The notes under the pieces: model-generated | What the model was told of the DNA's origin: nothing | The model's input: only the letters and a program-made list of their open reading frames with translations | Databases searched by the model: none | Source: a virus | Length of the DNA: 64,000 nucleotides | Reading direction: 5' to 3' (one strand) | IMG/VR virus record: IMGVR_UViG_3300031857_024892 | Location: 1-64,000 of that record | In this document: positions 4,396 to 54,770 of the stretch, one piece after another | Layout: every line of letters begins with the position of its first letter | Numbering within the stretch: the first letter of the stretch is position 1 | Program-made: the position numbers and the translations under genes

Positions 4396-6239
4396 TGGCA
4401 ACAATTCAGCAAAAACTCCGCCAACAGCGCCAGAGATCTTACCTTGGCAAAGATTTTGATGCTCTTAGGGATAATCTTGCAACCTACGCAAAGAGCTACT
4501 ACTCTGACCAGATTAAAGATGTGTCAGAGAGCTCTGTTGCGGGCATGTTTATTGACATGGCTGCGTACACGGGTGATGTCCTGTCATACTACCTTGACTA
4601 CCAGTTCAATGAGTTAGATCTCTCATCAGCAACTGATGTAAATAACGTCGAGAGGCTGATTAGAAGAGCGGGCGTCAAGATCGGTGGTGCACCACCTGCC
4701 ATCGTCAATGTTAATTTTTATGCAGTAATTCCAGCTCAAGTTGTCAATGGCAACTATCAACCTAATACACAATATCTCCCAATTATTCAGGCAGGAACTC
4801 AAGTTACTTCAAACTCTGGGATCGTGTTTGAGTTGACAGAAGATGTTGATTTTGGCGTCGTTGATAGCAATGGAAATCTTACTACAGAATACAAGATATT
4901 CTCACAGGATGCTGTAGGAAATCCTACAAGATTTGTCATGAAGGGCGTGGGTATCTGCTCATCAGGACGCATTGCAACAGAAACTTTCACCATTGATGAC
5001 AGCTTTGTTCCTTTTAGAACAATAACTCTTGCCAATCAGAATGTGTCTGAGATTATTGGTGTAACTGACAGCGATGGTAACCAATACTATGAAGTCGAAT
5101 CGCTTACACACGACGTCGTCTACAAGGCAATGACAAACACCAAGTACGATGCAGATGTCGTAGAAGATGCACTGTCAGTTATACCTGCGCCGCGCCGCTT
5201 CACATCAAGCGGCAGCCGTGTGACAGGTAGAACAACTTTGACTTTCGGATCGGGTGATGCACAGTCACTCGATGATGATGTCATACCCGATCCATCAGAG
5301 CTGGCACTACCTCTGTACGGATCGAAGAAGACGTTCAACAAAGTTTCAATTGATCCTAATACGCTACTCCAGACAAGGAGCTTGGGTATCTCACCTACAA
5401 GCACAACACTTACAGTGTCTTATCGTTACGGCGGTGGATTGAACAATAATGTGGGTGCAGGAACAATCAACAGCATTTCTCGTCTTGTGCATCGCTTTCC
5501 ACCTTCGACACCCACAAGCATTGCTTCCACAATTCGAGCAACTTTTGAAGTTGACAACACAGAGACAGCTGTGGGTGGTGAGGATGCTCTAACGCTTGAG
5601 GATCTGAGATCTATCGCGCTTGGTTACGCAAATTCACAGAATAGAATTGTGACTAAGCAAGATGCTGCAGCACGCATCTATACCATGCCGTCTAATTTTG
5701 GCAGAGTTTATCGTGCAGGTTTCCGTCCAAACCCAGTTAATCCTCTATCAACTTTAATGTACGTTGTTAGTCGAAACTCCAGTGGTCAACTTGTGCTATC
5801 AAGCGACACTCTCAAGATTAATTTGAGCAAGTACCTCAACGAGTTTAGATTGATCTCTGACGCAATAGACATTGTTGATGCAGCAATTGTGAACATAAGA
5901 GTGAAGTACACAGTGACACTTAACTCGTCTGCTGTGAAGAATACGACACTCCAGAAGATCAATCAGACACTTAAAGATTACTTCAACATTAAGAATTTCC
6001 AAATTGATCAAGGAATTCTAACATCTGATATTATGAACATACTTCTGAATACAGACGGTGTCACAACAGTGTCCAATCTTACTTTTGAAAGTGTGAACGG
6101 CGTCGTCAACGGAACAGCATACAGCGACGTTGTCTTTAATGTCACCCAGAACACTTTAAACGGTGTAATAGTTCCACCACCAGGTGGAATATTTGAAGTT
6201 AGATATCCAGATTTTGATATTATTGGTAATGTTAGCTAG
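4395..6239 (+). CDS. gp6: Baseplate wedge protein, T4 gp6-like
   Basis: 614 residues (T4 gp6 is 660). Forms the iris-like inner ring of the wedge with gp25 and gp7 and is related to P2 gpJ and TssF/G-type baseplate proteins. The N-terminus has the family pattern LGKDFDALRDNLATYAKSYY, then SVAGMFIDMAAYTGDVLSYY and LDYQFNELDLSSATDVNNVE. The middle is beta-rich. The C-terminal dimerisation part includes LTLEDLRSIALGYANSQNRI and VTKQDAAARIYTMPSNFGRV, typical of gp6/gpJ proteins. Start and upstream stop overlap (TAATG), so it is coupled to gp25. Confidence 0.85.
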   Translation: MATIQQKLRQQRQRSYLGKDFDALRDNLATYAKSYYSDQIKDVSESSVAGMFIDMAAYTGDVLSYYLDYQFNELDLSSATDVNNVERLIRRAGVKIGGAPPAIVNVNFYAVIPAQVVNGNYQPNTQYLPIIQAGTQVTSNSGIVFELTEDVDFGVVDSNGNLTTEYKIFSQDAVGNPTRFVMKGVGICSSGRIATETFTIDDSFVPFRTITLANQNVSEIIGVTDSDGNQYYEVESLTHDVVYKAMTNTKYDADVVEDALSVIPAPRRFTSSGSRVTGRTTLTFGSGDAQSLDDDVIPDPSELALPLYGSKKTFNKVSIDPNTLLQTRSLGISPTSTTLTVSYRYGGGLNNNVGAGTINSISRLVHRFPPSTPTSIASTIRATFEVDNTETAVGGEDALTLEDLRSIALGYANSQNRIVTKQDAAARIYTMPSNFGRVYRAGFRPNPVNPLSTLMYVVSRNSSGQLVLSSDTLKINLSKYLNEFRLISDAIDIVDAAIVNIRVKYTVTLNSSAVKNTTLQKINQTLKDYFNIKNFQIDQGILTSDIMNILLNTDGVTTVSNLTFESVNGVVNGTAYSDVVFNVTQNTLNGVIVPPPGGIFEVRYPDFDIIGNVS

Positions 6240-6247
6240 GAGATGAA

Positions 6248-7759
6248 ATGTATTTAGCACTATCAGCAAGTAAGGATACATACATTACCAATAAAATTAT
6301 TGGGTCATCTTTCCGAGCCACAGATGCAAATCTGGGTCAAGCAGGCACGCTTGACTTGTTCAAACTGTACGATGAGAACAGGATCGTCGGAGAGACAAAT
6401 CCAATTGAGCTCTCCAGAATTCTTATAAAGTTTGATTACTCCCCTCTCACAGCACTCCTTGCTACCAAGCTGAACACAAATGACGCTTCATTCAAATGTG
6501 AGTTAGTTCTAAAGGATGTCTATGGTGGCCAACCAACGCCCACTAACTTTAAACTAATTGTTTTCCCACTATCAAGAAGCTTTGATGAGGGCGTGGGCAG
6601 AGACGTTGTCGGTTATAGGGACATTGATGTCTGCAATTTTTTGACTGCATCTGTCTCAACAGGACAAGTTGAGAAGTGGTATGTGACAGGTGCTAATAAG
6701 CAAGGGCTGCTAGGATCTTCTGACATCGACATCATCTCAAGTGGCAACTTAAATGACGGAAATGGTGTTGTCAATCTTTGGAAAGAGCAGATCTTTGCGT
6801 CGGGCGAAGAAGATCTTAGAGTTGATATAACAGACATTGTATCAGGAACGCTTGCAGGCCTCATTCCTGATCATGGTTTTAGAATATCCTTCTCAGGATC
6901 GCAAGAGACAGATGAATTCACGAGATTTGTGAAGAGATTTACGTCTAGAAATGCCACAAATGTAGGCAAGCGACCCGGAATTGTTGTCACCTACAATGAT
7001 CTCGTCCGCGACAACCACAATAACTTCTTTTTCAATGAGACAGGCACGCTTCTCCTGTCAAACAACGTTAGAGGAATTCCTAGAAACATCCTGTCTGGAA
7101 CACTTCTCACTCCCATAACAGGCACAAATTGCATGATCTTGACACTAGCGACAGGATCTTTTACTAAGCAATTCAATGTCTCACAGCTAAGCTATGGTCA
7201 GAACTTTATCACAGGTGTCTACACATCTGACGCTATCCTAAACAGCTTCGAGAATACAACTGTCTACAATCACCTAATGAGCTCAGGATCGGTTGACTTC
7301 ACAGAGATATGGGGATCCAATGACGGCAAGGTAGGTTATTTAACAGGATCACTCACTGTCTATCGTCCCGATACAGAGCAGTATCATGTTGACCTTGAAC
7401 GTCTTACAATTAGCATGACAAATATGCGGACGTCATACCAGCAAAATGAGCAGTACAGATTTAGGATCTTTATAGAGGACATCACAAGGCAGTTTATAGC
7501 TAAGAAGCTGCCTTACGAGAACAAGGGAATATTTGTTGAGGACATCTACTACCAAGTTCGTGACACCGATTTGAATGAGGTAATTGTGCCATTCCACGAT
7601 CCAGGAACAGCTGTGTCAAATGACACGTCAAGCCACTACTTTGACTTCAATATGACATCTCTTCCGCGCGGGCGCACATACACTTTTGACTTTAAGATCT
7701 TGAGAGAGGGCTCAGAAGTTGTGTTCAAAGACGTTGCAGCAAAATTTAGGGTGGATTAA
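6248..7759 (+). CDS. Beta-rich baseplate or fibre protein, DNRLRE-like N-terminus
   Basis: 503 residues. The N-terminal 240 residues look like a DNRLRE-type beta sandwich: SKDTYITNKIIGSSF, then ELSRILIKFDYSPL, then FPLSRSFDEGVGRDVVGYRD. This fold is common in surface-exposed carbohydrate-binding or adhesive proteins. The second half is less typical beta-rich sequence with a glycine/serine-rich linker and ends in LPRGRTYTFDFKILREGSE. AGGAG lies 5 bases before the ATG. Coming directly after gp6, where T4 has gp7 and gp8, it is probably a peripheral baseplate component. The exact T4 equivalent cannot be told from the sequence. Confidence 0.6.
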   Translation: MYLALSASKDTYITNKIIGSSFRATDANLGQAGTLDLFKLYDENRIVGETNPIELSRILIKFDYSPLTALLATKLNTNDASFKCELVLKDVYGGQPTPTNFKLIVFPLSRSFDEGVGRDVVGYRDIDVCNFLTASVSTGQVEKWYVTGANKQGLLGSSDIDIISSGNLNDGNGVVNLWKEQIFASGEEDLRVDITDIVSGTLAGLIPDHGFRISFSGSQETDEFTRFVKRFTSRNATNVGKRPGIVVTYNDLVRDNHNNFFFNETGTLLLSNNVRGIPRNILSGTLLTPITGTNCMILTLATGSFTKQFNVSQLSYGQNFITGVYTSDAILNSFENTTVYNHLMSSGSVDFTEIWGSNDGKVGYLTGSLTVYRPDTEQYHVDLERLTISMTNMRTSYQQNEQYRFRIFIEDITRQFIAKKLPYENKGIFVEDIYYQVRDTDLNEVIVPFHDPGTAVSNDTSSHYFDFNMTSLPRGRTYTFDFKILREGSEVVFKDVAAKFRVD

Positions 7760-7761
7760 TC

Positions 7762-10700
7762 ATGGCAGCAAGCGTTGTTAGAACCAATCGCCCCACAGTT
7801 TTTACTTCAAATTTGAAGCTTGCGTCCCTGTCTAATCGATACGATGACGTCACAATCAGCAACCAAGAAGCTTCAAATATTGGCAATACGGGTTCCTTTA
7901 GATACGACCAGATTGGAGCTGCATTAAAGTCGACACAAGAACTCAACATCGATTACACACAGCTTGAAAATCACACTTTCTTCAATTCAGCAGTTGCAAA
8001 AGTTAACGTTGCATTTGATAGGATAATCAATAACTACCCATTTGACGGTAGCATCCAAGAGATACAAGATTTTGAAGACAGCTTGACCGGTTATGAGAGG
8101 TACATTCTCTCTCAGTTCACCAAGAGTAGAAACTTCTTACTGTTTGATGGCACATCACACATTGCAGTCACTGATGCAGCAGGTATCAATTTTCCAACTG
8201 TATCAAAGAATGACACAGGCTTAGGAGTTCTTGATCCAAGGACAAATAGCTTCTCATTTGAGTTATTTTGCTATCCTGCAGCACAGTCAAATGATAATCA
8301 GATCATCTTGCAGAAGAGAAAAGATGCGACAACAGCAATTACACTTGCGCTGTCCCAATCAGCATCAACGACGACATGTGATGCTCTCTTTATTGTCTCG
8401 ATGGGAAGCATGTATGTGACAGCGTCAGCAGCTGTCAACAAGGGTGAGTTCAATCACCTCTACTTTGAGTACAGCGCACTTGCATCATCATCATCGCTTA
8501 CCATCTATCGAGATCTTGAACTTGCATCACCCGAGTCAGATTTTGTCGTATTTGACGACTTAAATTTTAGCTCTGCAGATCTTTTAATTGGAACAGGATC
8601 GTCACATACAGCGGGTGCATACACATTCATCCCACAGCAGCATCTGTCGGGTGCTATAGATGAATTAAGATTTTTCCATGATACAAGGTCGCTGGCAGAT
8701 CTTGAATACAATTGGAAGAAAGAGATTTATGCAACTGCACCCTTGAAACTGTATTTCAAGTTCAATGAGCCGACAGGATCTTACGCAGCAAGCGATGTTG
8801 TCCTCGACTACTCAGGCAATTCTCTGCATTCTTACATCACAAACTACAGTGATGCACTGCGTGCTGGAGCAAGTATTGCAAACCCGATGGTCGCTGAAGA
8901 TCCTGATCGCTGCCCTGTTCTGTTCGCAGATTATCCGGCAACGCTGGCTTACAATCAAACTTTACTGGAAGATGCCCGCGACTTTGATGCAGTTAATCCT
9001 AACTTGATCACAAAGATCATACCTGCACACTACCTTAGAGAGGGCTTGGTAAGTCAAGGATTTGCTGATGAAGATGGAACAATCGGCAATGACTTTACGG
9101 GAACATCAATCCCAGGAACAGGTGAGATAGGTTCACCCCAGATTATCACGGCAATGCTTCTCGTCTACGCAAAATTCTTTGACGAGCTAAAGATGTTCGT
9201 GGATCATTTCTCAAATCTTGTCCACGTTGATTATGACCAAGACGTGTCTGTCAGCGACAAGTTTCTGCCATTCCTTGCAAACTATTATGGGTTTGAGGTG
9301 CCTTCCTTCTTTAAGACAGCTCTTGGTGAGCAGTTCTACGATGGTAGAAACATCACCCAGAATGATGAGAAATTGGCACAAAATCTTGACTACGTGAGAA
9401 AGCAGCTTTGGCGTCGTCTGTTGATAAACATGTCAAGCATCATGCGTGAAAAAGGAACGAATGCATCTGTTCGATCACTCTTCAACGCAGCAGGCATCAT
9501 ACCTGAGAATTTCTTCACTATTAGAGAGTTTGGTGGCCCAAAGAAGAACTTTCTTACAGGACGTAGAGAGAATAAGACAGAAATTGCCACAATGCTCGAC
9601 TTCTCCGGTAGCTTAAATCTAACACCAGGCACACTCAACTCTCAAGGATTTTCTTCCGTAAAGCCTCACATTATAGGCTCCTTCCTCTCGGGATCGCGTG
9701 TCGAGCCAGGATATCCTACAGTTGCTGGAACTCCATCAGACGGTTTGTTCACGTCAGGATCATTTACATTTGAAGGCATCTACAAGTACCTGGATCGTCA
9801 AGTTCACTTTGCGTCAGAGAGCTTGATGCGTCTTCATGTTACAGGAACGTCGGCACCGTCTGACGCACATGGTACGCTATTCAACATCATTGCGTCGTCA
9901 GGAAGTGAAGAAGGTGACTATTCACTGACACTTTACGGTCGACCGCTGCAGGGTATTTCAACAAATGTCATCACGCTGCAGCTAACAGGTGTCAACGTCT
10001 TTGATGGTGACAAGTGGAACATCGCATTTGGCCGCCAGCGCAGCGATCAGATAGGACACGCATCGTCATCCTACTTCCTGCGTGTTGGCAAAAATATCGA
10101 CACTGAGACAATTGTTACATTCCAGACATCATCTTACTTTTATGATGAAGACACATTTGGCACGACCAACGTCCTCCAAAATGTCAGCAGCAATTACAAT
10201 GCATCAGGAGCATTTGTCGTCATCGGATCGCAGAGCCTGGCATCAGGTGCATCATTCTTGAACAGCTACACAGCAGATGCCAAGGTCACTAATTTTACCG
10301 GGCGAGTTGCACAGCTCAGAACATGGTCAAAGGCACTAACAGACACAGAGTTTAGTGAGCACATTCGCAACTTCAAGTCACTCGGTGTTGATGACCCTAA
10401 GATCAATTTCTCATTTGATACAGAGACAACAGGCACATTTGAGCGTCTTCGTGTTGACACAAGCACAGATCAATTTACGACAGGCGCTGATGGAAGTGGA
10501 CAAATTCAAATCTTTGACTTTAGCCAGAACAATTTGTTCATGTCGGGCCTTGGATTTGAGGTAAACGCAAGAGTTATCAAGCCAGAGACATTCTACTACT
10601 CTCATTTAGCACCTAACTTTGACCAGAGTACGACGACCAATAAAGTGCGCGTGAGGAGTTTGCAGCGTCCTGAGGAATATGACATCAACACGGCACGCCT

Positions 10701-21366: not shown

Positions 21367-23183
21367 CCGAGACAGTCATATCAAAACCTGCTTTGTTAGT
21401 TGATCTTCCCGAAGTCAGCAGCATAGAAGCAAAGTTCGTCTACAACTTTTTTACGTCCGATGAGCGTACTAACGAGACGTCTAATGTGTACGGTAGCGTC
21501 GGTTTTACATCGACCGACGTTGATCTAACAACATCAACGTATACAGATAATATCGGTACATCGAACATACAAAATGAAACACTCAGAGCGTTTTATGGAC
21601 GCAACGCTGTCTATCCCAGATTTAACAGAATAACCATCACAAAGCCTCCTGTCGCAATTGATAGAAACTTATCAATTAGTAGAACAGATATAAAGGGAAA
21701 TGTTGCTCGAGAAGCTGCGCTTAATGTGTTTGGAAGAGTAGGTGTCAGCATTATTGACACAACGCTGGACAAGACAATTTACCGTATCCTGTCAGGGTCA
21801 ATCACTGCTCTCCAAGATCAAGAAACTAGCAGCGCATCAAGAAGAATTCTTGATGCCGTCGTGAATAGCATACAGCCCGACGGATACAGATACGCAGTGT
21901 CTGATATGCGTCAAATCAAAGTTAGTGCTGTTGAAGAGACACTACGTGGGCTTGAGTTTGGCTTTTCTTTTCTACCTACTGTTGCAGGAACAGTTGCAGA
22001 TGCCAGCCTAAGCTCACCGAAGAATGTTTATGCAGATGAGATCTCTAGTACACAAACGGAATTGAATGAAGTGGAAGATCAATCTGTTGCTGGGAGCAGG
22101 CCATACGTTCTCAGAACATCTGACTATGAAGCAGATTTTAATTTTATTGATGATGCTGTCATTGTCTCACCGACACTCAAGAATAATTTAATCGGCTACA
22201 TCATTCAAAAGTTTGGCACACGTGACGATGGAACAGTCGACATCTTTAGTGAGAAGCTTGATCTCAATCCAAATACAACTTCGTTCATCGATCCTGAGAT
22301 CGCATACGGAAGAAGTTACAAGTACAGAGTGATCTCTCTGTATGCATGTCAGTTTCAGATGAACCAGCAAGTGACAACAGCATTTGGAACCGAAGAAGAT
22401 AAAGTTGTGACCAGGTATGCCCTGTTTGCATCAAGAGGATCAGATGCATCCGTCGTCTGCGAAGAGTACATTGCACCTCCTCCACCCGTTGATCTCGCAT
22501 TTAGATATCGAGCTGACAATACAGGCTTAAACATTACGTGGAATTTTCCCATCAACTTGCAAGCTGACATTAAGAAAATTCAAGTTTTTCGGAGAAGCTC
22601 GACTTCTGAGCCATTTCAGTTACTTAGAATGTACGATTTTGACGACTCAGTTGTCAAGACACCAGATCCAGAGCGTGTACCAGAACGCCTGATAACACGT
22701 AGCTTGCTACCCACTACGCTGCACAGAGACACAGAGTTCACTAAGAACAGTAGGTTCATCTATGCAGTGTGTGCCATCGACGCGCACGGCTACACGTCTA
22801 ACTACTCAGTGCAGCTTGAAGCATCTTACGATAGATACCGCAATAGGATTAACACGCGTGTCATCTCTAGATCCGATGCGCCTAAGCCATACCCTAACAT
22901 TTTTCTTAACCGTGACACATTTGTCGATACCATGAAGATGTCAGGCTACACACGCCTCAACATTTATTTTGATCCTGAGTACATCAGCATCACAGATGCA
23001 ACTGGCGATGATCAAGAGCACGTTGTCTTCAACAATAATCGCGGCGATGATAACAGTTATAAACTACTTGTTGTTAATACTGACTTCCAGCAGAGCCAAA
23101 CGCTTGATATTAAGATCAACGATAGTTATGTTGAACCTCCAGTTATCACGCCTTCGACAGCCCGTGTCTTTAGGCCCACGTAA
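21363..23183 (+). CDS. Structural protein with FN3-like domain
   Basis: 606 residues. Residues about 370-490 form a probable FN3-like domain that follows a proline-rich hinge (APPPPVDLAFRYR): NTGLNITWNFPINLQADIKK, IQVFRRSSTSEPFQLLRMYD, RFIYAVCAIDAHGYTSNYS. Another beta domain precedes it (SFIDPEIAYGRSYKYRVISL). No enzyme motif is present. The start overlaps the previous stop (ATGA). After it comes a 49-base AT-rich gap containing two ATATTTA elements, the longest gap in this part of the operon. Confidence 0.55.
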   Translation: MTETVISKPALLVDLPEVSSIEAKFVYNFFTSDERTNETSNVYGSVGFTSTDVDLTTSTYTDNIGTSNIQNETLRAFYGRNAVYPRFNRITITKPPVAIDRNLSISRTDIKGNVAREAALNVFGRVGVSIIDTTLDKTIYRILSGSITALQDQETSSASRRILDAVVNSIQPDGYRYAVSDMRQIKVSAVEETLRGLEFGFSFLPTVAGTVADASLSSPKNVYADEISSTQTELNEVEDQSVAGSRPYVLRTSDYEADFNFIDDAVIVSPTLKNNLIGYIIQKFGTRDDGTVDIFSEKLDLNPNTTSFIDPEIAYGRSYKYRVISLYACQFQMNQQVTTAFGTEEDKVVTRYALFASRGSDASVVCEEYIAPPPPVDLAFRYRADNTGLNITWNFPINLQADIKKIQVFRRSSTSEPFQLLRMYDFDDSVVKTPDPERVPERLITRSLLPTTLHRDTEFTKNSRFIYAVCAIDAHGYTSNYSVQLEASYDRYRNRINTRVISRSDAPKPYPNIFLNRDTFVDTMKMSGYTRLNIYFDPEYISITDATGDDQEHVVFNNNRGDDNSYKLLVVNTDFQQSQTLDIKINDSYVEPPVITPSTARVFRPT

Positions 23184-25199: not shown

Positions 25200-26102
25200 A
25201 TGACGAAATTTGCACCAGTTCAAGTCACCTGCCAGTTCTGCCAAAAGATCTGGCAGGTTCCCTATAGATCGAGAAGCTCAAAATATTGCTCAAAAGCTTG
25301 CTCCAACTCCGGAACAAAACGCCAACGCGTCACGAAGACGTGCGAGCACTGCGGCACGGAATTTGATGTCATAAAGTTTAGAGCAGAAGATGCTAGATTT
25401 TGCACACAGAAATGTGCTTACGATCATCTTTATCAGAGACCTGATGGGCCTATAATCATTTCTTGCGAAGGCTGCGGAAGCAATTTTGAGACGACGTTTA
25501 TCAATAGAGCTCGACGATTTTGCTCTAAATCATGCGCAAATTTAGGTGAAAGAAATGCATTCTATCATTGTAGAGGTGCAGCAAATCACAGGTTTGGAAA
25601 ACCTGCTTGGAACAGCGGATTGACAGCTTATACAGACGATCGTGTCAAAAGAAATTCTGAAAAAGTATCAGATGCCATCTCTCAAAAGATTGTCGACGGT
25701 CTTTGGACACATACGGGCTTTAAGACAGAGTGGTACGTATCTAAGAAAGCAGGCAGAATTTTTCTGCGGTCATCTTACGAAAGTGTTTTTGCAAGGCAAC
25801 TTGATAATGACAACGATGTAGTAACATTTACATCCGAACCATTAAAGATACCCTACACACATGATGAAAGACGAAAGAACTACATTCCAGATTTCTTAGT
25901 AGAATATCGCGATGGTAAAAAAGAGATTATTGAAGTGAAACCTTGCACTCTGGTTTCATCTGATGAAGTGTCTGTAAAGACAAGTGCAGCAATAAAATTT
26001 TGCAATGACCTGGGAATTAGCTACAGGATCGTAACCGAAGCCGATTTAGGATTGACGCACGCTCGAGGCGATGAATTTAAGGATAATAAAACATGTTTAT
26101 AG
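25200..26102 (+). CDS. Free-standing homing-endonuclease-like protein: three zinc ribbons plus PD-(D/E)XK nuclease
   Basis: 300 residues. Three C-x2-C...C-x3-C zinc modules come first (C11/C14/C30/C34, C48/C51/C68/C72, C89/C92/C108/C112), then a NUMOD3-like DNA-binding patch (HRFGKPAWNSGLTAYTDDRV, about 130-149). The C-terminal nuclease reads SSYESVFARQLDND (E194), YIPDFLVEY (D231) and EIIEVKP (E245, K247), which is the PD-(D/E)XK pattern seen in TnsA-like and related nucleases. This architecture fits a mobile homing nuclease that cuts a phage genome lacking it and spreads by recombination. It is the only gene of this kind in the structural block, has its own leader, and sits between two genes that share a C-terminal module. 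Confidence 0.75.
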   Translation: MTKFAPVQVTCQFCQKIWQVPYRSRSSKYCSKACSNSGTKRQRVTKTCEHCGTEFDVIKFRAEDARFCTQKCAYDHLYQRPDGPIIISCEGCGSNFETTFINRARRFCSKSCANLGERNAFYHCRGAANHRFGKPAWNSGLTAYTDDRVKRNSEKVSDAISQKIVDGLWTHTGFKTEWYVSKKAGRIFLRSSYESVFARQLDNDNDVVTFTSEPLKIPYTHDERRKNYIPDFLVEYRDGKKEIIEVKPCTLVSSDEVSVKTSAAIKFCNDLGISYRIVTEADLGLTHARGDEFKDNKTCL

Positions 26103-42873: not shown

Positions 42874-44820
42874 ATGTCAAAGGCATTCTCCCTTAACCAC
42901 CTCACCGAGGGCATTAAGGATCGCAATAACAGCCAGGAAGGCGCACGTCTCGTTGAGAAGTGGAGCCGCACCGGCCTCCTCCGTGGCCTCGAGAACACCA
43001 AGCGCGACAACATGGCTCGCCTCCTCGAGAACCAGGCAGCTCAGGTCCTCCGCGAGGTCAACAGCCTCGGCGCAGGCGGCGGCAGCACCACCTCATCCGG
43101 CGACATCCGTGGCTTTGCCAACATCGCCTTCCCCATCGTCCGTCGCGTGTTCGGCGGTCTCGTGGCCAATGAGCTCGTCTCCATCCAGCCCATGAGCCTT
43201 CCCTCCGGTCTCCTGTTCTACTTGGACTACACCTACGGCACCAACGTAGGCGGTGACACCAACCTCCAGACCGGTGCATCAACAATCGCACAGACCTACA
43301 CAGCTGGTCAGTCCATCTACAACAATCCAGTTGGTAAGGGCATCCGCAGCGGATCTCTCGCAGTTGGCGGCCAGTACGACCTCGTCGGCACATCCTACTC
43401 ACAGGTCCACCAGCGGAATGCAGCTGTCAAGCTCTGGGCATCGGGCGCATTCCACACTGCAGCAGGCGCCAACTCATCAACAATCGTGAATGGTCTGGCA
43501 GTCTTCGCAACTGGAACAGACGGCAAGCTCATCGGCTTCGACCCCCAGCTCACCAATCTGATCGAGTCCAATAGCGGTGCAGGCGGTCCAGGCGCAACTG
43601 TAGGCAACGGCGTCTTCACATTCGCCGTCCTCAAGACAGATGGCTTTACCAATCTTGACGCAACACAGATCAAGGACATCTCACTCTACTCAAACGGCGC
43701 AACTGTAACAGTTCCTAACATGGGTCTTGGCACAATCGGCGACACTGTCCAGGGCGGAGCAAACCTCCTCAACGTTCGTCGTCTCAACCAGCTCGGCACC
43801 TTCAGCGGAGGCGTCTTCACACCCAATCCTCTTGTCGATCTGGGTGCAAGCAATGCTGCAATCCTCACAGTTGTGTCTGGCGTCTTCACACCAGCTGCTT
43901 CCGTACCAACAGGCCCATTCCTCACCGCTTCATACGTCATCTCCGACGCATTCAGTGCTGACTCCACTGATGCATCGGCTCTTACCGTTCCAGTCTTCGA
44001 GTCTGACTTCGGCCTCGGCAACGGCCCACAGCCAATCATCCCTGAGATCGACATCAAGATCGAGTCCATCGCCGTCACAGCTACAACCCGTAAGCTGCGC
44101 GCTCGCTGGAGCCCAGAGCTCGCACAGGACCTCAACGACTATCACTCGATGGACGCAGAGGTTGAGCTCACGCAGATCCTCTCCGAGCAGATCGCTCTCG
44201 AGATCGACCGCGAGATCCTCAATGACCTGCTCACCCAGGCCAACGGCGCCAACTACTACTGGTCACGTGCACCAGGACGCTTCCTCAACAAGGTGACAGG
44301 CGCCGAGGTTCTCCAGGGCACCAACGCTCCCGGACCCCAGTTCACTGGTACCGTCCGTGAGTGGTACGAGACCCTCATCGAGACCATCATCGACGTCGCA
44401 AACGAGATCCACCGCAAGACCCTCCGTGGTTCGGCCAACTTCATCGTGGTTTCACCCGATGTCGCCACCGTTCTCGAGGCTTCGGTGCTCTACAAGCCCA
44501 GCTACAGCCTCGACGGCCAGGGCCAGGTCGGCAGCGGCTTCTCGATCGGTGCAACACCCATCGGCAGCCTCAGCAACCGCTTCACAGTCTACAAGGACCC
44601 CTACTTCCCACGTAACAAGATCCTCGTCGGTTACAAGGGCGGCAGCTACCTCGAGACCGGCTACGTCTACGCTCCTTACGTCCCACTGATCGTCACTCCC
44701 ACCATCTTCGCCCCCGAGGACTTCACCCCACGTAAGGGCGTGATGACTCGCTACGGCAAGAAGATGGTCCGCAGCGACTTCTACGGCACCGTAACCTGCC
44801 TCGACATGAACATCATCTGA
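42874..44820 (+). CDS. gp23: Major capsid protein, T4 gp23-like
   Basis: 648 residues (T4 gp23 is 521), the HK97-fold shell protein. The N-terminus has MARLLENQAAQVLREVN, where LLE or a nearby LxE is a plausible protease cleavage site, then DIRGFANIAFPIVRRVFGGL and ELVSIQPMSLPSGLLFYLDY, the usual gp23 landmark. The C-terminal half has IAVTATTRKLRARWSPELAQ, DLNDYHSMDAEVELTQILSE and RKGVMTRYGKKMVRSDFYGT. The region between them (about 130-385) is longer than in T4 and Gly/Ser/Thr-rich, perhaps a surface insertion. Codons are strongly C-ending, a mark of very high expression. AAGGAG precedes the ATG; a strong terminator follows. Confidence 0.95.
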   Translation: MSKAFSLNHLTEGIKDRNNSQEGARLVEKWSRTGLLRGLENTKRDNMARLLENQAAQVLREVNSLGAGGGSTTSSGDIRGFANIAFPIVRRVFGGLVANELVSIQPMSLPSGLLFYLDYTYGTNVGGDTNLQTGASTIAQTYTAGQSIYNNPVGKGIRSGSLAVGGQYDLVGTSYSQVHQRNAAVKLWASGAFHTAAGANSSTIVNGLAVFATGTDGKLIGFDPQLTNLIESNSGAGGPGATVGNGVFTFAVLKTDGFTNLDATQIKDISLYSNGATVTVPNMGLGTIGDTVQGGANLLNVRRLNQLGTFSGGVFTPNPLVDLGASNAAILTVVSGVFTPAASVPTGPFLTASYVISDAFSADSTDASALTVPVFESDFGLGNGPQPIIPEIDIKIESIAVTATTRKLRARWSPELAQDLNDYHSMDAEVELTQILSEQIALEIDREILNDLLTQANGANYYWSRAPGRFLNKVTGAEVLQGTNAPGPQFTGTVREWYETLIETIIDVANEIHRKTLRGSANFIVVSPDVATVLEASVLYKPSYSLDGQGQVGSGFSIGATPIGSLSNRFTVYKDPYFPRNKILVGYKGGSYLETGYVYAPYVPLIVTPTIFAPEDFTPRKGVMTRYGKKMVRSDFYGTVTCLDMNII

Positions 44821-47401: not shown

Positions 47402-48598
47402 ATGGCAGATAAAATAAAGACAGGATATGAAGGCACCAACGTCCCGGACGATTTTTCTATTCCTCCCGTTGGAATAGAAGATATCGATCGTGCAATTTTT
47501 ACCCTGTTTGACAAGAAGCTGGCATTCGAGACAAAAGTTAATAATCAGACAACACGTGTTCCTGTCATCTTTGCGTCAGGTGAACGTTTTGCTCTGACAC
47601 GCCGTGACAATCCGCTGCGTGACAAGAACAACACACTGATCTTACCACTGATCTCAATAAAGCGCGGTGCTATTGGACACAAGACGCAGGCTGACGTCTT
47701 TGGCACAGCAATTAGCATTAGGCAGACAGGCGACTACTACATAAAGAAGAAGTTAGATGCAGGCGATCGTGACTACCAGAAACTGGTCAACAATCTCAAT
47801 TTGATGAACCAGAAGGATGTTGCGACAAGGAGCCACATCTCTGACACGTCAACAACACCGGGCACACAAGCTGTTGAAGGCACAGTTGCGTCGCGTCGCC
47901 AAGGCCCACCTCTGTCATTTAGAAGCACGTCAAAATATACTCCACTTTCTAATGATCTCACTAACAACATCTATGAGTTTATTACTGTACCTTATCCAAA
48001 GTTTGTAGGCATCACATACAACGTCATTTTTTGGACGCAGTACATGCAACAGATGAACCAGCTGATCGAGTCTCTGATGATGAAGTTTAGTGGCCCATCA
48101 CCCGAGTTTCTACTTGAGACAGACAAGGGTTACACGTTCACAGCATTTGTGCAAAACACATTCTCCAACTCAGACAACTTGGAAGAGTTCACAAATGATG
48201 AGCGTATCATAAAAGTAGGGTTTGACATCAAGGTTCCAGGCTATATCATCGCCCCTGATCACCCAGGACTGCCCTCACCATTCAGAAGATTTGTCAGTGC
48301 ACCCCAGATCAACTTTGAGATATGGGAGCAGAATGCTCAACTTGTCAACGAAGTGCAAGGTAATAAGACAAAAGACAACATCGATAAGTTCACTCTCACA
48401 GATGTAGAAGTTCTCAATAAGAATGGTCAGCAAGTTGAGAACAGAGGGGCTGAGCCGCTTCGTGTCATCGAGAACGTCACTAATCCCTTCTCAGGTCAGC
48501 AGCAGCCTAAATACTTAAAGGTGACGTCAAGAGTTGCAAAAGCAGGTGAAACAATACTTACGGCGCAGAAGATCCGTAAGATAGATACTCTCGACTGA
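47402..48598 (+). CDS. gp15: Tail terminator / sheath stabiliser, T4 gp15-like
   Basis: 398 residues (T4 gp15 is 272). A hexameric ring at the head-proximal end of the tail that locks the sheath and binds the neck. Three stretches line up by eye with T4 gp15: RVPVIFASGERFAL (T4 RVPITYASKEHF), KFVGITYNVIFWTQYMQQMN with QLIESLMMKFSGPSPEFLLE, and ERIIKVGFDIKVPGYIIAP (T4 RRIEWSLTFEVNGWMYPP). The extra length is mainly a Thr/Gln-rich insert at about 145-180 and a C-terminal extension. It lies directly before the sheath genes, as expected. Confidence 0.75.
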   Translation: MADKIKTGYEGTNVPDDFSIPPVGIEDIDRAIFTLFDKKLAFETKVNNQTTRVPVIFASGERFALTRRDNPLRDKNNTLILPLISIKRGAIGHKTQADVFGTAISIRQTGDYYIKKKLDAGDRDYQKLVNNLNLMNQKDVATRSHISDTSTTPGTQAVEGTVASRRQGPPLSFRSTSKYTPLSNDLTNNIYEFITVPYPKFVGITYNVIFWTQYMQQMNQLIESLMMKFSGPSPEFLLETDKGYTFTAFVQNTFSNSDNLEEFTNDERIIKVGFDIKVPGYIIAPDHPGLPSPFRRFVSAPQINFEIWEQNAQLVNEVQGNKTKDNIDKFTLTDVEVLNKNGQQVENRGAEPLRVIENVTNPFSGQQQPKYLKVTSRVAKAGETILTAQKIRKIDTLD

Positions 48599-48617: not shown

Positions 48618-48625
48618 GATAGTTA
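48618..48625 (+). promoter_or_regulatory. Candidate late promoter, GATAGTTA
   Basis: GATAGTTA ends 23 bases before the ATG at 48649 of the first tail sheath gene. The identical octamer precedes the second sheath gene and the tail tube gene. Confidence 0.5.
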
Positions 48626-48648: not shown

Positions 48649-51600
48649 ATGATGGCAGAGACAACTTTTAGGTCGCCTGGGTTCTTTGAGCAAGAGATTG
48701 ATTTATCATCTCCCGCAACACCAGGCGTATCGGGCGTTCCAGTCGGTGTGATTGGAACAGCAGAAATCGGCCCTGCGTTCGTCCCAGTGACGGTGGGCAA
48801 TGCAGCACAGCTTCAGCAAGTTTTTGGCGCTCCCCGCGCATCTGACGTAGGCCTACAGGGGGCCAGTCAGTACCTACAGAACGGCACAGCGCTTACATTC
48901 GTCAGAGTGCTTGGATGCGGCGCGAACTCAACAACATCAGATTTTTCAACAACTACAGTACAGGGAACGGTTAAGAACGCGGGCTTCTTCATCAAGGGAA
49001 CGACACCCGCTGTTGGCACAGATGCACGCCACAAAGGTGCGGTTCAATATATCACGGCAAAACACTGGGTGTCAGCATCAGCAGATGTGGGTTACCCAAT
49101 CTTTACAGACAACAACAGCTTCAGCGTCGCATCTGGCGACAACTTTGTCAACTTAGTTCGCGGTATGGTGCTCCTTGCATCGGGCACGCGCCTGCAGGTT
49201 CTTGACTACAATCAAAACTATTCTGTTGCAAACGCAGTTGATGATAACGCGACAATTGACGGCACACTAAGCAGCAATCTCTATAGAAAGTTCAAGCTTG
49301 TCATCTCTAGCTCCTCACCTTCATTCTCTACGGGTGATGGTCAGACGGGCATCAGGATCTTGACAGCATCGCTTGATCCTGCTGATACAGCCTACATTGG
49401 CAACATACTCAACACTGATCCTGCGCGTTTTGAGACAGAAGAGCATCTGCTTTACGCCGACTTCCCCGTCGAGGCTGAGGTTGCAATCACATCGACTGAC
49501 AGTGGTGCGGTCGCAGTCCTGTCGGGATCTGCAAACACGTCAGCTGCGTCAGGTGACACCTCACAAACCTTTAGAGATGCTTTTGGCAGATTTGATACCC
49601 GGTATTCATCTGCGAAGACGACATACTTCATCTCACAGCCTTATGGCTCAAGTGAATATGATCTCTTCTACTTTGAAACTCTGAATGATGGTGCAAACAC
49701 ATCACAGAAGTACAAGGTATCAATCAGCACACTCGCTAAGTCAAGTGATCCTGCAAATCCATACGGAACATTTACAGTTCAGGTTCGTGATTTCTACGAC
49801 ACTGATAAAAATCCTGTCATCCTTGAGCAGTATCCTAACTGCACACTCGATCCTAACGACGATGACTATGTTGCGAAGCGCATCGGTGATCAAAAGTCAT
49901 TCTTTAGTTTTGATGCACTCTCAGCTGAAGAGCGCAAGTCTTACACATCGGGAACAAGAACAAATGTGTCAAGTCGTGTAAGAGTTGTCATGCACCCAGA
50001 CGTCGAAGCAAAGCGTGTACCATCTGATGCTCTGCCATTCGGCTTTAGAGGCTTGCCAGTTGCCAAGACAACAGACACACTCACTGATGGAACGTCTGGT
50101 TTAAGCGGCTTTGGAATAAACACAGCCCGCCGTCTTGCTGGCGTCTTCGGTACAGCAGGCCTTGAGGCACACACAGGATCAATTCTTCCACCCGTTCCTC
50201 TGCGTTTCAAGGTGACAACAAATGCAGTTGATGCTGCAGGTGGTTATGTTGGTAAACCAGGTGCGCTGGAGATCACAGACGCGTCATACTACTGGGGCAT
50301 CAAGTCAGAGGCACTTCCCCTGACATCTAGCGTCTCTAACGCAATCTTGCGTTCTAATGACAGCTCGCTGTTCAATCCTTTGCTCACTTCCTACAGTAAG
50401 TTGCTCGGAATTCAGAAGCTTGATGTCCTGGTCACAGGATCATCAGCGGACGCATTCTCGAATAACAAGTTTACATTGGCTCGAGTCGCACTCAATAATT
50501 CGCTTGGCGGCCGCACACTCGTAAATGCTCTTGCAGATATCACAGGAACAGCAGAGCAACACATGCTGGAGACAGCTTACATACGCAACGGTGTTGTTAA
50601 TCCAACAAACTACACGGTTCAACCTGCAACTGAGGGTAACAGGTTGACATTTGCGTCTCTCTACGCAGTGACTTCATCCATCTACTTCAACAAGTTCACA
50701 AACTACGCAAAGTTCACCAACATCTTCACAGGTGGGTTTGACGGCCTCAATATCCTCGATCCAGACATGAGCAAGATGAACGATCGCTCAACGTCGTCAG
50801 AGACAGGCGGTAAGGCAGTCTCCGTGGTCGATATCGGCCTTAACTCTGCATACACGCCCGGCGCCGGTGTCAACAACGGCATTGTGACAGCTTACAGAAC
50901 AGCTGCAGAGATCCTCACCAACCGGTACGCGTCTAATGTCAGCGTAATTGCTGCACCTGGTATACGTGATGCTGCAGTTACCAACTATGTCTCTACACTT
51001 GTGCAGAACTACGGATTTGCTCTCTACTTGATGGATATCCCAGGTTATGATTACAATGGCGTTAGATTGTTTGACGGTGGATCTGAGCACCCCGATGTCC
51101 AGCAGACAGGAAACAAGTTTACATCACGCAAGCTGAATAACAACTTCGTTGCGGTTTACTTCCCAGACATCACGATGCAAGATCAAGGTGGCTCATCCCG
51201 GAAGATTAAGGTGCCCGCATCAGTCGCAGCACTGGCAGCTATAGGTTATAACGATGCTGTGTCACATCCCTGGTACGCACCTGCAGGTTTCAACCGCGGC
51301 GCGCTCAACTTCGTCACATCAACGGCAGTGCGTCTCAACTCTGCAGATCGTGACTTCCTGTACGACAACAGGATCAACCCAATCACGTCATTCCCAGGAA
51401 CGGGTTATGTCATCTTCGGACAGAAGACACTGCAAGTTGGAAAATCTGCGCTTGATCGTGTCAATGTGCGTCGTCTCGTGAATGAAGTGAAGCGCGTCGT
51501 CAGCAATATTGCTAGCACATTCTTGTTTGAGCAGAACAACTCAGCAACGCGGGCAGCTTTTGTGTCACAGGTCAATCCTGCACTGGCACTTGTCCAGGCA

Positions 51601-54770: not shown

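Follow-up and report, generated by a model that had tools for sequence, protein, structure and literature searches.

Descriptions of the contractile sheath of a phage tail usually show a single protein that repeats all along the tube. What, then, is the role of a second sheath gene placed immediately beside the first? The question is raised by a virus record of 163,948 bases, of which we analysed a stretch of 64,000 nucleotides (positions 1 to 64,000, hereafter the window) that carries two sheath genes, S1 and S2, in tandem. A clade of phages that keeps two diverged sheath genes, and sometimes three or four, would serve as a natural experiment on the need of a symmetric spring for two subunit types, and it would make testable the effect of a heteromeric lattice on the energetics, the tube grip, and the surface display of a tail.

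A tandem pair of gp18-type sheath genes

S1 (48649..51768; 1039 aa) and S2 (51801..54770; 989 aa) are both complete open frames on the plus strand, separated by a spacer of 32 nt, and their products are 30% identical over 1088 columns (BLASTP, E 2e-123). These coordinates and lengths bear out a preliminary description of the locus, which had recognized two tandem, divergent sheath genes of about 1000 residues each. Across the entire 163,948-base record, the only S1-like proteins are S1 and S2 themselves. Directly downstream of S2 lies the tail tube gene (54799..55287, plus strand; phrog_4542), which is the single match to the tube family in the whole 164-kb record, and the tube gene is followed by a gene for a T4-type baseplate protein (55331..56203, plus strand; PF12322, phrog_150). 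On the other side, S1 is preceded by a gene for a gp15-like tail sheath stabilizer (47402..48598, plus strand), recognized by a weak match to PF16724 (23.7 bits against a cut-off of 25). The surrounding T4-like virion genes encode the terminase, portal, protease, and major capsid protein. Two other genes of the window have features of their own: the capsid gene (42874-44820) displays an unusually strong codon bias, with a GC3 of 0.717, the top value among 33 measured genes, and the gene at 25200-26102, flanked by virion genes of unknown function, has matches to both HNH endonuclease and head-closure families.

Both proteins match the tail sheath family phrog_23 (E 6.1e-61 for S1 and 6.1e-49 for S2), and both exceed the cut-off of 26.9 bits for the sheath C-terminal domain PF17482 (28.0 and 36.6 bits, respectively); for PF04984, the Pfam search scored S1 at 29.3 bits, under the cut-off of 31.4, and listed no match for S2. 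A profile of S1 compared with PDB sequences finds T4 gp18 as well as sheaths of other phages and of injection systems. The structures of the two proteins were modelled as single chains with AlphaFold2 (pLDDT 87.2 and pTM 0.87 for S1; 84.6 and 0.84 for S2), with N ends of low confidence (residues 1-25 of S1 and 1-14 of S2). For both models alike, the top Foldseek match is the T4 chain 9mkb (gp18), and VIA comparison with the T4-type sheath 9f4a yields Z 30.9 and rmsd 3.7 over 440 aligned residues for S1, and Z 32.9 and rmsd 4.6 over 452 for S2, these matches spanning chiefly the sheath core. The N-terminal arm, the C-terminal arm, and the acceptor hairpin are present as aligned segments in both proteins, the N end of the window S2 being shorter in the alignment. 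Family membership, predicted fold, arms and hairpin, and the neighbouring tube gene together identify S1 and S2 as contractile tail sheath proteins of the T4 gp18 type.

With gp18, S1 and S2 share the fold, the arms, the C-terminal domain, and the gene neighbourhood. However, T4 has a single sheath gene, the product of which measures 659 aa (the PDB sequence agrees with the length quoted in the preliminary description), whereas here there are two genes with a longer middle. Indeed, the extra length of S1 and S2 lies mainly in the middle region, where they also differ most from each other: the mean identity between S1 and S2 of the same phage (55 pairs) falls from 0.48 in the N core to 0.28 in the middle (residues 116-680) and rises again to 0.53 around the segment ALDRVNVRRL, confirming the initial impression of the same ends and different middles. 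That segment does occur in both proteins, as had been pointed out, but it does not mark the pair, being a general sheath motif that is also found in single-sheath relatives and has a similar form in T4 gp18.

Another claim concerned the octamer GATAGTTA, of which each sheath gene was said to have its own copy. The octamer does stand before S1 (48618..48625) and before S2 (51771..51778), in both cases on the plus strand, but it is not specific to sheath genes, given that it also stands before the tube gene (54773..54780, plus strand) and that a fourth copy in the window occurs at 23121. Four copies alone are not rare, as 7 of 100 shuffles reach that number, and the octamer is one of several variants of a motif, ATANTTA, the fourth base of which is degenerate and which precedes many genes. 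The window (1-64000) contains 21 plus-strand and 5 minus-strand copies of ATANTTA; 15 of the former lie 5-40 nt before a gene start, compared with 0.56 expected for the 47 gene starts of the window. Among relatives, 66 of 74 S1 genes have the motif in the 50 nt before them, compared with 38 of 4603 coding 50-mers; for S2, the counts are 45 of 75 genes and 26 of 4555 coding 50-mers. We call the motif late-promoter-like for what we take to be its resemblance to T4 late promoters, and in this phage group it probably serves as the late promoter. The octamer was therefore rejected as a sheath-specific signal, and it holds no information on sheath zoning.

One duplication and the later expansion of the S2 line

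Other phages have the pair as well. Scans of viral contigs with S1 and S2, in which the best 80 matches were kept per search, produced at least 150 loci, and more distant relatives were added through scans with the S2 alignment and with the fourth sheath of the locus L058, along with one genome scan with the S1 alignment. Among the loci found, with overlapping stretches of one contig counted repeatedly (for instance, L009 and L087), 155 S1 genes have 500 nt or more of sequence beyond them; an S2-type gene comes next within 500 nt in 154 of these, and in the remaining one (L250) an S2-type open frame overlaps the end of S1. Reciprocally, all 149 S2 genes preceded by 500 nt or more of sequence come directly after a sheath gene. 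Every related locus found with room for both genes thus has both, S1 before S2, in a sample that, having been found by S1 and S2 patterns, is biased to close relatives, the single-sheath relatives coming from wider searches. Automatic labels mis-assigned a few single-sheath sequences (for example, L223, L242, and L260) to S1 or S2, the two scores being nearly equal, and the pairing counts use a stricter rule. When 50,697 phage records were searched with S1 and S2, none covered 80% of either protein or reached 60% identity. The S1-S2-tube gene order provides environmental virologists with a simple marker of this uncultured clade. At two loci (L168:5257-8260 and L181:2939-6446), sheath frames are split in two, possibly through assembly or sequencing error, and were retained in that form; in some more distant relatives, a single sheath gene is followed by two adjacent tube-like genes (L196:9512-10655, L213:1231-2526, and L214:1735-2791).

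We built two quick phylogenies, with SH-aLRT support only and some long outside branches. In the first one (163 sequences), the 75 S1 proteins form one clade and the 76 S2 proteins another, each with support of 100, and all 12 outside sheaths fall outside the two clades. In the second one, S1, S2, and the additional copies described below (S3) split, with support of 98, from 30 single-sheath sequences that include those of the phages Mel-JY01, immuto, JSE, B23, and SP-15. Given that each copy forms one clade and that the single-sheath sequences lie outside, one duplication gave rise to S1 and S2 before the clade spread. The trees thus place a single ancient duplication at the origin of a large clade of uncultured phages of the T4 superfamily, with both copies kept ever since. 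The origin of the two genes by duplication, which the preliminary description had suggested and proposed to date by phylogeny, is accordingly placed at the base of the whole phage clade. Both genes bear the imprint of constraint: dN/dS is 0.03-0.07 in comparisons with near relatives in which synonymous sites are unsaturated (3 saturated comparisons gave no ratio), indicating strong purifying selection on S1 and S2 alike. Inactivity of one copy in close relatives, the outcome that had been envisaged as evidence against a functional pair, is not what we find, both genes being present and evidently constrained.

The S2 proteins are the more variable, with a mean column identity of 39% among 60 S2 sequences versus 52% among 60 S1 sequences, and reach lengths of 1508 aa (L255:13239-17762) and 1401 aa (L254:5272-9474), with inserts. 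The two contigs that encode these longest proteins have been binned as Methylococcaceae and Flavobacteriales MAGs and are probably phage contigs in those bins. Additional gene copies are found at several loci. The order S1-S2-S2'-tube-S3, that is, four sheath genes, is present in L058, L245, and L248; these three, together with L246 and L247, apparently represent one phage, because all five match one and the same fourth gene at 99-100%. In this group, S2' and S2 share 80% identity over 932 aa, with an extra N-side insert in S2', and S3 is located beyond the tube gene. Three sheath genes each are found in L249 and L250, and a weaker S3 follows the tube gene in L176 and L206. A single clade nested inside S2, with support of 100, unites the S3 proteins of L246 and L249 with the product of the L250 middle gene, and the C ends of the extra S3 copies are degenerate. 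A Pfam search with 8 long S2, S2', and S3 proteins detected sheath domains in 6 of the 8, with a sub-threshold TPM match in one and nothing in two, and the inserts of such proteins matched no Pfam family. Further growth, by inserts as well as by arrays of three or four genes, is confined to the S2 line.

How two sheath proteins could share one tail

We lean, with modest assurance, towards a heteromeric virion sheath in which S1 and S2 would both be major trunk components on a single tube. Part of the case comes from codon usage. When 31 other genes of the window were ranked by proximity to the codon usage of the capsid and tube genes, S2 came first and S1 fifth. In 20 relatives, each scored against its own capsid gene, S1 is more capsid-like than the gp15-like gene in 17 and S2 in 18, and more capsid-like than the gp13-like gene in 19 and 17, respectively; against the gene at the place of 56418, the count is 11 of 12 for each. 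The sheath genes are in no case above the tube gene (0 of 17) and are not separated from the baseplate hub gene (S1 is higher in 10 of 17 relatives and S2 in 11 of 17), and S1 exceeds S2 in 8 of the 20. Both sheath genes thus resemble abundant virion proteins in codon usage, an indirect hint that S2 is not a six-copy part.

The other part comes from the residues that each copy has kept. As reference we took the 134 columns in which at least 80% of 37 single-sheath sequences agree. S1 and S2 both retain 65 of these, S1 alone retains 7, and S2 alone 4, whereas 12 are lost in both and the rest are intermediate; given those 12, general divergence is also present. The columns kept by S1 alone include R901, R968, N999, N1000, and F1038, and those kept by S2 alone are R788, D790, I945, and Q1017. 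R901, kept in S1 and lost in S2, belongs to the helix R-L-x-x-x-D-R-D-x-L-Y (S1 residues 895-905; 51331..51363, plus strand), which we take to be the tube-side (attachment) helix of known sheaths. The attachment helix in domain I contacts the tube, as stated in an excerpt of a published study that contains no residue numbers mappable to S1 (PMC8894135). N999 and N1000 lie in the acceptor-hairpin region of S1 (residues 985-1017; 51601..51699, plus strand) and are fixed in all 75 S1 proteins, with threonines in their place in S2 (75 of 76 and 76 of 76, respectively). Conversely, S1 has lost R788, found in all 37 single-sheath sequences, and D790, found in 97% of them.

A partly crossed pattern also emerges from the divergence of entire segments among phages, assessed on average with resampled phages and also in 27 disjoint phage pairs, ties being dropped. 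The hairpin region of S2 (TTTTQADINNNTIRGK, residues 935-967; 54603..54701, plus strand) is better conserved than its S1 counterpart, with a mean difference of 0.244 versus 0.378, and is the tighter one in 24 of 26 informative pairs (p 1e-5). By contrast, the tube-side helix is looser in S2 (0.565 versus 0.334; 20 of 24 pairs, p 0.0015). The arms are looser in S2 on average when phages are resampled, yet in only 17 of 27 disjoint pairs for the N arm and 14 of 25 for the C arm; the hairpin and the tube-side helix are therefore the main basis of the crossed pattern.

Several of these features would also suit a zoned sheath, with S1 (or S2) forming the trunk and the other protein restricted to a single special ring, or a small number of them, located at the baseplate or the neck. 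Such zones exist in PVC, judging by the chains in each PDB entry: Pvc2 is present in both sheath and baseplate entries, whereas the baseplate entry 6j0n is the only one with Pvc3 and Pvc4; similarly, Afp4 is found only in entries 6rao and 6rgl. The relaxed tube-side helix of S2, its arms, looser on average, and the degenerate C ends of the extra S3 copies all agree with a specialized ring. Nevertheless, we regard this arrangement, although it is the leading alternative, as rather unlikely: the codon usage of S2 is as capsid-like as that of S1, only S2 has been multiplied, and a trunk made of S1 alone predicts a better conserved hairpin in S1, which is the reverse of what nearly all informative phage pairs display. 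The preliminary description, which is borne out in part, had raised a mixed or two-zone sheath or the use of one copy for a special ring; between these options, the capsid-like codon usage and the conserved residues lost reciprocally by S1 and S2 tip the balance towards two trunk proteins, both abundant, rather than a special ring.

That S1 and S2 serve alternative tails, at different times or in different hosts, with one of them per virion, seems very improbable. Each gene has a separate promoter-like motif, and a phage could in principle switch between them, but S1, S2, and the tube gene all carry the same ATANTTA type, the two genes always stay together, the locus architectures include no inverted or switching arrangement, and a single tube gene serves both. 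We give the least credence of all to dosage or redundancy, whereby interchangeable copies would mix at random; both proteins are complete and have the sheath fold, as this would require, but residues specific to each paralogue are fixed clade-wide, such as the asparagine pair of S1 and the threonines of S2, and there is no sign of gene conversion, the S1 and S2 clades staying apart in 151 sequences.

In the heteromeric sheath that we propose instead, S1 and S2 would polymerize on the single tube as major trunk subunits. S1, with the ancestral tube-side helix, would be the main tube-gripping subunit, and S2 would contribute its own highly conserved acceptor hairpin and tolerate inserts and extra copies. 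How the two would be arranged is a weaker inference. In phage Mu, both arms of the subunits of a ring form a handshake with the hairpin of the adjacent ring (excerpt of PMC11915804), and in pyocin, both arms come from the layer above (excerpt of PMC8195476). Given that both arms enter the hairpin of the next ring in known tails, alternating rings of S1 and S2, with S1 arms paired with S2 hairpins, would best fit the partly reciprocal conservation of residues; such alternation is compatible with the conserved S2 hairpin rather than proved by it, the arms being inconsistent and co-variation non-discriminating. Co-variation between arms and hairpins was tried as an indicator of the handshake partner (partial Mantel, 55 phage pairs) and set aside, the values for own and partner hairpin being almost equal. 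In its fullest form, the proposal describes an obligate copolymer of two proteins in alternating rings, in which S1 would grip the tube and S2 would supply a specialized hairpin and a variable outer surface, and the multiplication of S2 would have given some lineages tails with three or four sheath proteins; this we put forward tentatively, as a possibility open to considerable doubt.

Comparison with known multi-sheath systems

Two-component sheaths as such are already known. Pseudomonas phage PaBG has two sheath paralogues that arose by duplication and are 38% identical, both being named among the virion bands (excerpt of PMC7412058); Alexandravirus genomes are reported to encode two distinct sheath proteins (excerpt of PMC9686651), and a survey mentions that some phages encode two sheath copies (PMC9230969). 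PaBG and the Lupandier/Alexandravirus relatives thus resemble the phages described here in having two sheath paralogues per genome. However, the PaBG genes (gp76 and gp213) are far apart by number, with bands of ~58 kDa, whereas S1 and S2 are adjacent and ~1000 aa long. In the first tree, in which relatives of PaBG are represented by one sheath copy each from the Erwinia phages Yoloswag and pEa_SNUABM_18, these two sheaths fall outside the S1/S2 clade. Several sheath paralogues, three in one machine, are likewise present in AFP (Afp2/3/4) and PVC (Pvc2/3/4), and in AFP, both Afp2 and Afp3 are listed in the sheath PDB entries 6rbn and 6rc8. Unlike S1 and S2, these sheath proteins are only 354-451 aa long, belong to toxin-delivery particles rather than phages, and have positions known from structures.

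What is new here is the tandem pair of ~1000-aa sheath proteins as a fixed trait of a large clade of the T4 superfamily, the growth of only one of the two lines, and the reciprocal loss of conserved core residues; in the open-licence PubMed Central literature on tandem or two-component sheaths, we found no mention of this clade. Microcystis phage Mel-JY01 and Flavobacterium phage immuto, which rank with the nearest named relatives in sheath and capsid comparisons, have one sheath gene each (812 and 709 aa, respectively). A different pair occurs in the uncultured 484-kb phage LR756508 (L154), where two sheath-like frames of 824 aa each are located ~1 kb apart (4446-6935 and 7944-10424), one of them with an N end other than the usual SPG. 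Neither groups with S1 or S2, which makes a separate event likely, although both branches are long.
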